This document shows, one piece after another, positions 1 through 3,981 of a DNA stretch of 36,041 nucleotides (position 1 is its first letter; each line of letters opens with the position of its first letter). The translations under genes and the position numbers were made by a program. Source of the stretch: an uncultured Spartobacteria bacterium. Lineage in GTDB: Bacteria > Verrucomicrobiota > Verrucomicrobiia > Chthoniobacterales > Chthoniobacteraceae. The stretch lies in NCBI GenBank assembly GCA_903929475.1, contig CAIYUV010000051.1, positions 1 to 36,041 of the forward strand. Reading direction: 5' to 3'. The notes beneath the pieces are model-generated. The model saw only the letters and a list, made by a program, of their open reading frames with translations. It did not search any database and was not told the DNA's origin.

Positions 1-174
1 AACCGTGGCCTAAGTCATGATCAGTAGCGATGCGCTTCAGTCATTGGTGCTCTTTTGATAGCTCAGCGGTAAGCTCACGTGGCGGAACATCCTTGTGCAT
101 GGAGTGGGGGAAGGTGGCGCGGTCGCCGGATGTGTTGCTTGCACTCATTGGCGGAAGTGCGGAAAGTGTGGGCC
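1..174. other. upstream region of the first gene, no gene recognised
   Basis: No coding sequence is supported here. In-frame GTG and other starts upstream of 175 would add an Arg/Trp-rich extension in front of a clear signal peptide, so they are unlikely. A TTGCAC at 139-144 lies about 30 bases before the ATG and could be a -35-like element, with only a poor -10 (AAAGTG, 163-168). If used, the transcript would be nearly leaderless. This is inference from spacing only. Confidence 0.3.
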
Positions 175-2352
175 ATGCGAGCGATTGTTTTGCTTCTTGT
201 CCTTGTCCTCTCCGCCAGCGCGGAGACGGTGACTTTCCGCAATCACGTGCAGCCGATTTTGATGAAGACGGGATGCTCGACGGGCGCGTGCCACGGGGCG
301 GCGGCGGGGCAGGGGGGATTGAAGCTCTCGCTGCGCGGCTACGATGACGAGGGCGATTTCCTCACACTCACACGCGGTGCGTTTGGGCGGCGGGTGAATC
401 CGAGCGAGCCTGCGAAATCGCTCATCCTGCTGAAGGCGACGAGCGCCGTGCCGCACAAGGGCGGCGAGCGGTTCAAAGTGAATTCTCCGGAGTGGCGCAC
501 GCTCGTGGATTGGATCGCCGATGGCGCGCCGGGGCCGCGTGCGGAAGATGCGCGCATCGAGCGAATCGAAGTGCAGCCCGCGCAGGTGCGCCTCGCGCCG
601 GGTGAAAAGAAGCAGTTCACCGTGCGAGCGCATTTTTCCGACGGACACAGCGAGGACGTGACGCGCTGGGCGAAATACACGGCGGCGAATCAGACCGTGC
701 TCAACGTGGACGACGCGGGCCTCGCCACGGTGGTCGGCCACGGCGAGAGCGCGGTGACGGTCTGGTATTTGCAAAAGGTCGCGTTCGGCACGGCGAGCGT
801 TCCGTTTGAAAATCAAATCGCAGAGAGCACGTGGACGCAGGCGCCGCGCAGGAACTGGATTGATGATCAAGTGCTGGCGAAATTGCGCGAGCTGAATCTC
901 CCGCCTTCACCGCGAAGCTCCGATGGCGAATTTGTCCGCCGCGTATTCCTCGACACCATCGGCGTGCTGCCGACTGCAAATGAGGTGCGCGATTTCCTAG
1001 CGGATAAGAGCGCCGACAAACGCGACCGGCTCATCGAAGCGCTGCTCGTGAGGCAGGAGTTCGTGGATTACTGGACATACAAATGGAGCGACCTCCTGCT
1101 TGTCACGAAGCGCAAACTGCCTTTGCCGACGATGTGGTCCTACTACCGCTGGGTGCGCGATCAGGTCGCGTCGAATACACACTGGGACGACTTCGCCACG
1201 AAGCTCCTCACCGCGCAGGGCAGCTCGCTCGACAACGGCGCGGCGAATTATTTCGTCATCACGCCCGACCCGCGCGACGTGTCGGAAAAAACCTCCGTCA
1301 CCTTCCTCGGCATCTCCACCGTGTGCGCGAAATGCCACAACCACCCGATGGAAAAGTGGACGAACAACGACTACTTCGGCTACGCCAATTTGTTCGCCCG
1401 TGTCCGTATTAAAAATGGCAAGGGCGAAGAGCGCATCGTCTTCGCCGCCGATGATGGCGACCTCGTCCAGCCCCTCACCGGTAAGCCCCAGCAGCCGCGC
1501 CCGCTCGGCGGGCAGCCCGTCGCGCTCGATGCCGCCGGCGACCGCCGCGAGGCGCTGGTGAAATGGCTCACTGCTCCCGAAAATCCCTACTTCGCCCGCG
1601 CCATCACCAACCGCGTGTGGGCAAATTTCTTCGGCGTCGGACTCGTCGAAGCCGTGGACGACATCCGCGAGACGAACCCCGCCAGCAACGAGCAACTCTT
1701 CACCGCCGCCGCGACATGGCTGCGCGAACACCACTACGATCTCCGCGCGCTCATGCGCGAGATTTTGCAAAGCGAAACCTACCAGCGCACCAGCGCCCCG
1801 CTGCCGGGCAACAAGGACGAAACGCGCTTCTATTCCCACTACTACCCGCGCCGCCTCATGGCCGAAGTGCTCCACGACGCCATCGCGCAAGTCACCGAAG
1901 TGCCCACGCCTTTCACCACGCGCGACGTCACCGTCGAGGGCGACAATCAAACGCCGTTCCCCCTCGGTTGGCGCGCCCTCCAGCTCCCCGACGCCAACAC
2001 CAACAACTACTTCACCAAAACATTTGGCCGCCCCGCCCGCGAGCTGACGTGCGAATGCGAGCGCACCACCGAGTCGAACGTCGCCCAAGCCCTCCACATC
2101 GCCAACGGCGACACCCTCAACGCCAAACTCCGCGCCAACGACGGCTTCATCACCAAAGTCCTCGCCGCCAAAAAAACCGCCGCCCAGTGGCTCGAAGACG
2201 CGACCCTCGCCACCCTCGCCCGCGTCCCGTCCCCCGCCGAAATCCAAGCCGTGCAAAACTCCCTCGCCGCCGCAAAAGACGAACAGCGCCTCGTCGTCGA
2301 GGACACCCTCTGGGCCCTCCTCAGCAGCCGCGAGTTTTTGTTCAATCACTGA
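175..2352 (+). CDS. secreted DUF1549/DUF1553 planctomycete-type cytochrome-like protein with BIG2 domain
   Basis: A 725-residue protein. Residues 1-16 form a signal peptide ending in an A-S-A cleavage motif. A PSCyt-like segment follows with C34-x4-C39-H40, the CX4CH arrangement usual in this subfamily. A bacterial Ig-like (BIG2) domain spans about 120-210. DUF1549 spans about 222-420 and contains a classical CXXCH motif (C384-A-K-C387-H388). DUF1553 spans about 465-700. This architecture is very common in Planctomycetes and Verrucomicrobia, often in many paralogues beside DUF1501 proteins, and is thought to act in the periplasm, perhaps in polysaccharide degradation or electron transfer; the exact reaction is unknown. 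No DUF1501 partner is seen here. The start at 175 was chosen because it gives the signal peptide directly; an in-frame GTG at 79 does not. A weak GCCGC/GCGGC hairpin follows the stop. Confidence 0.9.
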   Translation: MRAIVLLLVLVLSASAETVTFRNHVQPILMKTGCSTGACHGAAAGQGGLKLSLRGYDDEGDFLTLTRGAFGRRVNPSEPAKSLILLKATSAVPHKGGERFKVNSPEWRTLVDWIADGAPGPRAEDARIERIEVQPAQVRLAPGEKKQFTVRAHFSDGHSEDVTRWAKYTAANQTVLNVDDAGLATVVGHGESAVTVWYLQKVAFGTASVPFENQIAESTWTQAPRRNWIDDQVLAKLRELNLPPSPRSSDGEFVRRVFLDTIGVLPTANEVRDFLADKSADKRDRLIEALLVRQEFVDYWTYKWSDLLLVTKRKLPLPTMWSYYRWVRDQVASNTHWDDFATKLLTAQGSSLDNGAANYFVITPDPRDVSEKTSVTFLGISTVCAKCHNHPMEKWTNNDYFGYANLFARVRIKNGKGEERIVFAADDGDLVQPLTGKPQQPRPLGGQPVALDAAGDRREALVKWLTAPENPYFARAITNRVWANFFGVGLVEAVDDIRETNPASNEQLFTAAATWLREHHYDLRALMREILQSETYQRTSAPLPGNKDETRFYSHYYPRRLMAEVLHDAIAQVTEVPTPFTTRDVTVEGDNQTPFPLGWRALQLPDANTNNYFTKTFGRPARELTCECERTTESNVAQALHIANGDTLNAKLRANDGFITKVLAAKKTAAQWLEDATLATLARVPSPAEIQAVQNSLAAAKDEQRLVVEDTLWALLSSREFLFNH

Positions 2353-3072
2353 GCCGCCAGGGTGCGGCAGACGATGGCCCCTGTTTAGCAGGATGATGGA
2401 ATTCCCTCGGCAGTCGCAATCGGCGGGGGAAAGTGGGCGGCTTTGGGGGTGGATTTGGGGATTTCTCTGAGAAACAGGGTGCTTCTCCTGTCGGGGAGAG
2501 GTATCTTCTCTGTTGAGGTGGTGAAAATTGGGATTCACTGGCGCGAAAAAGTCATTATAACGCGCCAAATTATCATAATTTGGTGCGAAATAATCATTAT
2601 TTTGTGCGAGATAATCATTATTTTGTGCGAGATAATCATTCACTGGTGCCAGATTATTATAAAAGGGTGCGAATTTTTAAAGATTTGGTGGCAAATAATC
2701 AAACATTGGTGCAAAAGAATGATAATTACGCGCCAAAGAATGACAAATGCGTGCCAAATAATGATAATTACGTGCCAGAGAATAATAATTACGCACCAAA
2801 TAATGATAATCTCGCACCAAATAATTATTCTTTCGCGAGGGTTGGGGATTGATTGGCGCAAGTTGTTGAGTGTTTCGCGCGAGTCGGGAATCCCGTTGCG
2901 CGAACAAATGGGAATTTGGAGCGTGAGGAGGTTTTTCCTGCCGAAAAATTTGCTGCCGACGCGAAAGATTGGTGCGGCGGGGTGCGTATTTTTTCCAGTG
3001 TTTGGGAGATTTTTCCCGTAACACACTCCATAAATAGAGCACTCACACGAAACTCCAAAGAAAACACCCAGC
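2353..3072. other. 720-base gene-free region dominated by a 21-bp repeat array
   Basis: The region between two plus-strand genes is much more AT-rich in its middle than its surroundings. Several reading frames on both strands stay open across it, but only because the repeat period (21) is a multiple of three; their products are Ile- or Asn/Tyr-rich and resemble no protein family. Bases 2353-2505 show only a weak hairpin just after the first gene. Bases 2926-3072 are the likely 5' region of the gene at 3073, with an AT-rich TAAATAG near 3033 that could belong to a promoter. The array itself is listed separately. Confidence 0.7.
2506..2925. repeat. tandem array of about 20 degenerate 21-bp units, arms mutually inverted
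   Basis: Units keep an exact 21-bp register. Each has a 12-bp AT-rich half resembling ATAATCATTATT followed by a 9-bp half such as TTGTGCGAG or ACGCGCCAA. The core is 2548-2841 (14 units); outer units keep mainly the GCGCGAA-like part. Units 2590-2610 and 2611-2631 are identical. Left-arm units (to about 2673) end in GTGCGA-like sequence. Right-arm units (from about 2716) end in CGCACCAA-like sequence, its reverse complement. Bases 2578-2598 match the reverse complement of 2802-2822 at 19 of 21 positions. The AT half is itself a near-perfect palindrome around a central C or G. The array could form a long hairpin or cruciform, or present sites every two helical turns. Function unknown. Confidence 0.85.
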
Positions 3073-3798
3073 ATGAATGCGAAACAAGCTTACTTCTGGC
3101 CTCCGGATGCGGAGGGGAAACGCGACTGGCTCATCCACTGGAATGTGACCATCACCCCGGCGCTCATCACCAAATACAGCCTCGCCAGTGCGGACATGAC
3201 TTATCTGCAAAAGGCGGAACGGGTGCTTGGCTATCTCATCGAACTCAAAACGGTGGCGGACGCCTGGTCACAGTCCATCACCGAAAAGCGCGACGGGATG
3301 TTTTCCCTGCCGCCGACGACCACCCTTGTGCTCCCGGCAAACCCCGCGCTGCCCGCCCCGCCCACCACCAGCGGCGGCGCGACGCTCGACATCGCCTGCG
3401 GGCTGGACGTGACCGTGGCCCGCATCGCCGCGCAGATGAAACGCAGCCCCGCCTACGACGTGGCCGATGGCGAACTGCTCGGCATCGAAGGCCCCGCCGT
3501 CCCGGCTCCCGACCCCGCGACGACGAGGCCCAAACTCACGGCAAAAATCATCACCGGCGGCGCGCCGGAACTGCGCGTGAAGATCTCCCCATTTCGATCC
3601 TGGGAATTGTGGGGGGACTTCGGCACGGGCACCTTCGCCATGGTGCAGGTGGCGCTCCGCTCGCGCCTGCTCTGCGGGCACGCGCTGCCCGCGCCGGGCC
3701 ACAGCGCGGTGTGGAAGTTCAAGGCGATCTTCCGCGACGGCAACTCGCAGTTCGGCCAGTTCAGCGACGTGCTCCCGGTGACGGTCTTCGGCGAGTAG
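3073..3798 (+). CDS. hypothetical protein of a Verrucomicrobia/Bacteroidetes-type family with a fibronectin-like C-terminus
   Basis: A 241-residue protein with no signal peptide or membrane segment. Residues 1-75 look helical and begin with an aromatic motif (YFWPPD). A Pro/Ala linker follows at about 78-100, then a short helical segment whose R-S-P-A-Y and L-L-G-I-E-G motifs I associate with a family of unknown function in Bacteroidetes and Verrucomicrobia. A second Pro-rich linker precedes a beta-rich C-terminal part ending in a WKFKAIFRDGNSQFGQFSD segment, which resembles the last strands of a fibronectin type III fold. The family assignment is from memory of the pattern and not from a search. 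It stands alone, about 150 bases downstream of the 21-bp repeat array and followed by a strong hairpin, so it is probably transcribed by itself. Function not known. Confidence 0.75.
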   Translation: MNAKQAYFWPPDAEGKRDWLIHWNVTITPALITKYSLASADMTYLQKAERVLGYLIELKTVADAWSQSITEKRDGMFSLPPTTTLVLPANPALPAPPTTSGGATLDIACGLDVTVARIAAQMKRSPAYDVADGELLGIEGPAVPAPDPATTRPKLTAKIITGGAPELRVKISPFRSWELWGDFGTGTFAMVQVALRSRLLCGHALPAPGHSAVWKFKAIFRDGNSQFGQFSDVLPVTVFGE

Positions 3799-3827
3799 GC
3801 CGGTGCGGCCGGGCTTGCGTGGATACG

Positions 3828-3865
3828 AATTGGGCCGCGCCCGCAGTGCGGGGCACGGCCCAATT
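3828..3865. terminator. strong GC-rich hairpin, probable terminator
   Basis: AATTGGGCCG at 3828-3837 pairs perfectly with CGGCCCAATT at 3856-3865. Inside it, CCCGCA and TGCGGG form a second short stem. It lies 30 bases after the stop of the hypothetical gene and before the permease gene. There is no long U tract, only the flanking AATTT, so it may be a poorly canonical intrinsic terminator. Confidence 0.55.
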
Positions 3866-3981
3866 TAGTGCGCTGGTCTCAGCGCTTGGATGGATGAAAG
3901 GACTACTTGGTTTCCTTTTTCTTGCAGTCTGCTTTTCCGCTCTGGAAGAATGGGCGCCGGCCCGCTAGGGGTGCGTGGCTC

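Follow-up and report, generated by a model that had tools for sequence, protein, structure and literature searches.

The window, a stretch of 36,041 nucleotides from an uncultured Spartobacteria bacterium, carries a module of two parts: a tandem array of 21-bp units and, shortly downstream of it, a gene for a protein with a predicted FN3 domain. As we would define it, the module consists of about 10–25 dyad-symmetric units in an exact 21-bp register, followed within ~0–300 bp by a gene for a helical-plus-FN3 protein of 230–240 amino acids. The existence of this combination of array and gene is well supported. Twenty-one base pairs make two turns of DNA. For the mechanism we infer that the array would serve, at the level of DNA, as a cis platform whose equivalent sites all lie on the same side of the helix, that a dimeric protein would bind these phased sites cooperatively, and that the bound protein would control expression of the adjoining gene in cis. 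Phase and symmetry, perhaps with matching between neighbouring units, would be what matters, so that the sequence of an array could drift by unit-by-unit homogenisation, as we propose, and recombination or transposition would have spread those array copies that lack a gene. This reading of the module, with its array as a helically phased platform of dyad sites, is the one we prefer; we hold it tentatively, at somewhat less than an even chance.

The Array in the Window

The periodic stretch in the window, as measured, spans 2493–2937. In the array itself the identity at lags 21/42 is 0.63; 2000 shuffles averaged 0.28 and never exceeded 0.35. In its best 168-bp stretch lag 21 reaches 0.71, and lags 18–20 and 22–24 give 0.34–0.37. 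TRF reports a period of 21 with 0% indels. The two measurements agree on the exact register over ~420 bases that an earlier note on this DNA had described. That note also matched 2578–2598 to 2802–2822 in inverted orientation, and the 19 of 21 identities it counted are reproduced. The unit orientation, which it saw flip near 2674–2715, does so near 2710, as indicated by the complementarity of the two arms (Table 1).

Table 1. Parts of the cassette and adjoining features, in positions of the window.
Feature	Position	Strand	Description
Cassette 5' part	2365–2505	+	84% common to the array copy on contig C235 (genome G000); starts with remains of the rlmN 3' end (by eye)
Header	2482–2518	+	CTTCTCCTGTCGGGGAG ... 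CTTCTCTGTTGAGG, with the genus-level motif TTCTCTGTYGGNG, phased with the array; one mismatch in the window copy
Phased array	2506–2925	+	~20 units of 21 bp; orientation flips near 2710
Left inverted arm of array	2585–2701	+	117 nt, 72% complementary to 2720–2836
Right inverted arm of array	2720–2836	-	Complementary to 2585–2701
Leader between array and gene	2926–3072	+	Last 50 bases A/C-rich (read from sequence)
Gene	3073–3798	+	241-aa protein, N-terminal helices and C-terminal FN3 domain (predicted); multi-copy
Cassette 3' tail	3799–3830	+	Match to G000:C55 (99% over window 3563–3830) ends at 3830
Inverted repeat after gene, putative terminator	3828–3865	+	10-bp arms 3828–3837 / 3856–3865 (read from sequence)

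The alternation of AT-rich and GCGCAA-containing halves is present in the window copy. As a shared motif it fails, being peculiar to the window and the C235 copy of the same genome. Arrays in general share the 21-bp register and, at the level of the genus, a header (TTCTCTGTYGG); the letters of the units vary.

Array and Gene as a Cassette

In the sister genome G007, whose DnaE is 96% identical, homology to the window runs up to 2358, in the PSD1 gene, and picks up again at 3963, ahead of a TauE-type gene; the two window flanks sit on different contigs there. Within G000, the genome of the window, C235:1–612 matches window 2365–3018 at 84% and C55 matches window 3563–3830 at 99%. These matches and the breaks in G007 indicate that array and gene form a unit of ~1.5 kb, and we would place the window cassette at about 2365–3830. 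Directly upstream of it, window 79–2352 encodes a PSCyt2 (DUF1549) plus PSD1 (DUF1553) protein.

At 2365 the window has what look, by eye, like the last bases of rlmN. The C235 array adjoins rlmN, and at the same rlmN stop codon G007 has an unrelated 21-bp array. Contigs C5 and G007:C70 have in common, at ~95%, an upstream flank with an HTH gene; their family genes show only 76% identity, and the units are not alike. The C5 gene is nearer to the gene on G007:C33 (89% protein identity), and the C5 array is likewise nearer to the C33 array. Comparisons of this kind show array and gene to have been duplicated or replaced together as a cassette, which bears on the suggestion of the earlier note that the two may form one functional or mobile unit.

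Arrays With and Without a Gene

The gene of the window has several relatives in its own assembly, many of them cut at contig ends. The copies on C5, C236, C177 and C195 have 21-bp arrays upstream, with quite different units. A pattern search placed the header motif TTCTCTGTYGGNG exactly at 24 sites in the genome, and at almost every one of them an in-phase 21-bp array follows, with a unit of its own (for example CCATTTCTTGCGGGGGCGTCC, TTCCGCCGTCCAATAACGTTA, AGACGGAGCATTTAAAGTTTT and CTCTTTGAAGAAGGAACATTC). About 15 internal arrays have no family gene within ~3 kb, arrays at contig ends not being counted; array counts per genome are lower bounds. In G007 there are two gene-less arrays in 397 kb, a density similar to that of the window's genome. 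Gene-less arrays are dispersed in the same genomes as the module. The two that were compared with sister genomes, C59 and C86, lie at synteny breaks, and the module itself stands alone among unrelated genes (rpoC, sulphite reductase, SHMT, M42 peptidase).

Such a distribution would be expected of a dispersed mobile repeat of the REP or BOX kind, in which the array is the mobile part and the gene a passenger or maintenance factor. The header at more than 20 places in the genome, the many arrays without a gene, the similar density in the sister genome, the lone position of the module, the synteny breaks at two gene-less arrays and the cassette boundaries all fit. However, REP and BOX units are recognised by sequence, whereas the array sequence here is free; no transposase was found in the module and its protein belongs to no known family, and the bond with one gene family reaches across a phylum, deeper than expected of a passenger. 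We consider this reading rather unlikely, although it can be compatible with the phased platform that we prefer.

Several arrays of this genome have features of their own. On C41 (L080:222–538) a separate 21-bp array of CCACACGTGGGGGACTGCGTG type is immediately followed by a second array, which has the standard header. A gene-less array on C138 (L067, near 3600–3700) ends in GCGCCCGCTCTTCACGGGGCGCGCTCCGTTTGTT, like the hairpin after the family genes on C5 and C236, which could reflect the loss of a gene or a terminator belonging to the array itself. Arrays of TTCCGCCGTCCAATAACGTTA type (L068, L069, L029; C177, C85) end in CTCTTTTCCTCAGAGAAGC. This sequence looks like the header read in reverse complement (CAGAGAA), so that inverted ends of the element are possible. 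An LRR-like coding stretch with a register of ~69 bp occurs in several copies in G000 and G007 (L070:1–514, L243:720–1219, L247:2695–3157).

Association of Arrays with the Gene Family across the Phylum

A DNA similarity search with the window array in 19 genomes found nothing beyond its own genome. Since the array sequence is not conserved, the search had to go by period. Within the genus, almost all full-length homologues with sufficient sequence have 21 or 42 as the best lag in their upstream 900 bp; the exceptions are L107, with 8-bp repeats, and the fragment L096, and L084 does carry an array. Most testable loci in other families and orders of the class also have a 21-bp array upstream. 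There L137 has a register of 22/44, L130 shows only 8-bp repeats among its top lags, and the lag test found no clear array upstream of the homologues at L132, L133 and L135.

Among named genomes, 54 of 72 loci could be tested, and 42 of these have a best lag of 21, 42 or 63 at ≥0.5 upstream of the gene; most of the remaining loci show lag 21 weakly, a register of 22 bp (Haloferula luteola, L166) or 8- or 14-bp repeats in addition. The same lag test found arrays in 0 of 53 control regions of 700 bp downstream of the gene and in 1 of 42 control regions at −1700 to −1000. The last search added six testable loci, with 21 or 42 the best lag in five (L273, L274, L275, L279, L286) and a weak signal in L277. 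The array is tied to the gene family across the phylum. The link between array and gene that had been suspected from the window receives strong backing from this period-based test; the proposed check for 21-bp arrays with the AT/GCGCAA pattern upstream of homologues turned up the arrays, and the AT/GCGCAA motif is not conserved in them. Header matches in another genus (L051, L052) were without the period and were set aside as chance.

Homologues are distributed patchily over the Verrucomicrobiota, with many copies at loci unrelated to one another: one profile found them in 28 of 236 genomes of the class, and another, narrower one in 6 of 388 genomes of the phylum. A scan of genome contigs with narrow patterns returned Verrucomicrobiota records, among them one labelled Lentisphaerae and two without a phylum name; the family may also occur in other phyla. 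Plasmids, phages and viral contigs yielded no member of it. At the locus with the 22-bp register in H. luteola, where the isolate YC6886 carries the module, the module is divergently arranged beside an HsdM-like (type I restriction-modification) gene.

Register and Symmetry Are Kept While the Letters Change

Similarity between unit profiles reaches the random baseline below ~65% protein identity, and no 7-mer is repeated at least four times in more than 5 of 87 arrays. The register is exactly 21 in 514 of 518 local windows (22 in three, 16 in one), a figure that measures drift within arrays, the arrays having been chosen by lag 21/42. Dyads within units go beyond those of column-permuted arrays in 45 of the 87 arrays (Fisher 1.6e-35), and the arms covary unit by unit beyond within-column shuffles in 27 of 87 (Fisher 2e-19), both Fisher values overstating independence because the loci are related. 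In L286, for instance, GGTAT-CC-ATACC stands beside GGTAG-GC-CTACC, and in L150 GGCTGAA-TCC-TTCAGCC stands beside GGCTGGA-TGC-TCCAACC. Within an array the unit letters change in concert, with fast turnover. Taken together, register and dyad symmetry are kept while the letters of the array turn over quickly.

Concerted change, fast turnover and symmetry on both strands are also what a neutral minisatellite would give, with slippage and template switching making and homogenising the units and quasi-palindrome correction producing the dyads; template-switch mutation can make palindromes without selection. However, slippage favours no single exact period across dozens of unrelated arrays, nor does it explain placement upstream of one gene family, with control regions almost free of arrays. 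We judge a neutral origin improbable.

Mismatches within dyads are G.T in 250 cases (310 expected) and A.C in 283 (328 expected), a result repeated at stricter thresholds. Both strands of the arrays fold better than the column-permuted control (p ~1e-14), and the sense strand is not favoured when composition is controlled. With neither a G.U nor a strand preference, the symmetry seems to lie at the DNA level, belonging to the double strand or to the way in which it mutates rather than to a single RNA strand. The one-face binding at two turns by a putative protein, offered in the earlier note, is compatible with the strict 21-bp register and the strand-symmetric dyads.

A long structured RNA, the other suggestion made there, finds no support in the folding of the sense strand, which is no better than that of the antisense, or in the dyad mismatches, which do not prefer G.U over A.C, although promoter-like sites before the array hint at its transcription. 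The same observations bear on a more specific proposal, in which the array would be a transcribed 5' leader, built of RNA hairpins in tandem, and would govern how the FN3 mRNA is translated, how stable it is or where it is localised. Before the array there are 12 promoter-like sites where 4.7 would be expected (for example TTGACA-TAAGAA in L156), an enrichment that would fit an array which is transcribed and functions as RNA. The leader before the ATG is unstructured and A/C-rich, a stretch also seen in many homologues, and the units fold better than their column-permuted controls. Against this, G.U is not in excess over A.C at dyad positions and the antisense strand folds equally well; RNA hairpins need no exact 21-nt register with almost no indels, and the arrays of seven loci have no Rfam match. 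Hairpins acting in the mRNA leader are in our estimate unlikely.

As 21 bp is seven codons, the array could in principle encode a heptad repeat, either as an N-terminal extension of the protein or as an overlapping gene, and one or more sense frames are open in 71 of 87 arrays. However, variability follows codon position in only 2 of 87 arrays, the open frames are not biased to the frame of the gene (33 of 110), and the C41 array tolerates a 1-bp deletion. Coding heptads were rejected on codon position and frame, and we give them next to no probability.

The FN3 Protein

Family members have 230–240 residues, in a helical part and an FN3 domain. An AlphaFold2 model (pLDDT 88) places helices at 11–31, 36–76 and 104–117 and the FN3 domain at ~137–233. 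Residues 137–233 of the model align to FN3 domains with Z 10.9 and an rmsd of 2.2 over 87 residues, and the C-terminal part is accordingly modelled as an FN3 beta-sandwich. FN3 domains were the sole matches in the fold search, which barely covered the helical N-terminal part. The family has no Pfam or NCBIfam match, in keeping with its earlier description as uncharacterised. PADLOC gave no match for three family members, and no described defence protein was found among them; PHROGs gave only a chance-level match. Between close pairs dN/dS is 0.11–0.29, showing the protein to be, by this measure, under purifying selection while the array turns over.

Comparison with Known Systems

CRISPR arrays have identical repeats and unique spacers, whereas the units here abut without spacers at a period of 21. 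As units also differ from one array to another, the array is, as first claimed, neither a CRISPR array nor a known REP type.

The middle units of BOX elements are one conserved sequence of ~45 bp. The units here, in contrast, measure 21 bp, vary freely in sequence, keep to the helical register and are linked with a gene family. The likeness lies in a dispersed, intergenic element with a fixed header and a variable number of tandem middle units, as in the BOX elements (boxA-boxB(n)-boxC) of Streptococcus pneumoniae (PMC3049150). A genus-level header and a partial trailer exist in our arrays, and the middle units are not conserved.

REP/BIME elements with RAYT transposases also have short palindromic units that are dispersed and sometimes clustered (GTAG- and CGTC-tagged REPs, PMC3733652; REPINs, PMC3116915), and Opitutus terrae, of the Verrucomicrobia, is reported to be rich in GTAG REPs (PMC3733652). 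The module differs in having no conserved tag or sequence, in its strict 21-bp register and in its partner, a helical-plus-FN3 protein. Y1_Tnp genes are present in 10 of 10 genomes of the genus, one of them (C236:48688–48990) at ~1.5–2 kb from the C236 array; no Y1 transposase was found among the 20 neighbours scanned with Pfam, and the search for a Y1/RAYT partner brought up no link.

Plasmid iterons are tandem Rep-binding repeats of ~17–22 bp. Like the module they have sites in tandem, spaced by about two turns of the helix and close to a gene, but the module is chromosomal, with many loci per genome, dyad-symmetric, not conserved in sequence and without a Rep homologue. No Rep initiator was found beside the repeats, the partner being a protein of predicted helices and FN3 without a Pfam or NCBIfam match, and a relative had no match on plasmids. 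The lambda OR and OL regions are tandem operators of three sites, bound by the XRE-family repressors Cro and CI. They resemble the module in having dyads about two turns apart upstream of a gene, and in one subgroup of the module an XRE HTH gene adjoins. The module differs in its 10–25 sites rather than three, and its HTH gene was not found at most loci and is unmatched to the array sequence.

Since no known system fits and no description of such a module was found in the open-licence papers covered, we rate this kind of array and gene as new. It looks to be a previously undescribed module in two parts, which move together as a cassette. Recognition of regulatory and mobile repeats normally depends on their sequence. 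In the module a two-turn spacing and a dyad symmetry are kept across a phylum, beside one protein family under purifying selection, while the letters are exchanged even between sister species. Annotation that relies on sequence would overlook such elements, which a period search finds, and they raise the question of how a cis element works with only its geometry conserved.

A Candidate Regulator and Second Arrays

An XRE-family HTH gene lies upstream of the array at eight loci of one protein subgroup (L019 on C5, L020:641–1213 on C236, L083, L084, L085, L098, L104 and L117), which include a genome of another family, G195. We regard it as a candidate regulator in this subgroup. As a reader of the array sequence it does not fit, near-identical HTH genes adjoining unrelated arrays (L083 and L104). 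The FN3 protein may be durably coupled in cis to an array that conserves nothing but register and dyad symmetry, and the array may work by geometry, through phase and self-symmetry with its letters free, possibly as a locus-specific address recognised only by its own cassette or its own type of protein, a proposal we find possible and hold a little more loosely than the phased platform itself.

At four loci (L145, L150, L158, L156) a second tandem array precedes the 21-bp array, ~400–600 bp before the gene. Its units are of 8 bp (GCGCACCA, CACCGCGC, GCGCCCCA) or 14 bp (CTCTCGCGCCGCCA), and in L145, L150 and L156 it follows closely after a promoter-like site.
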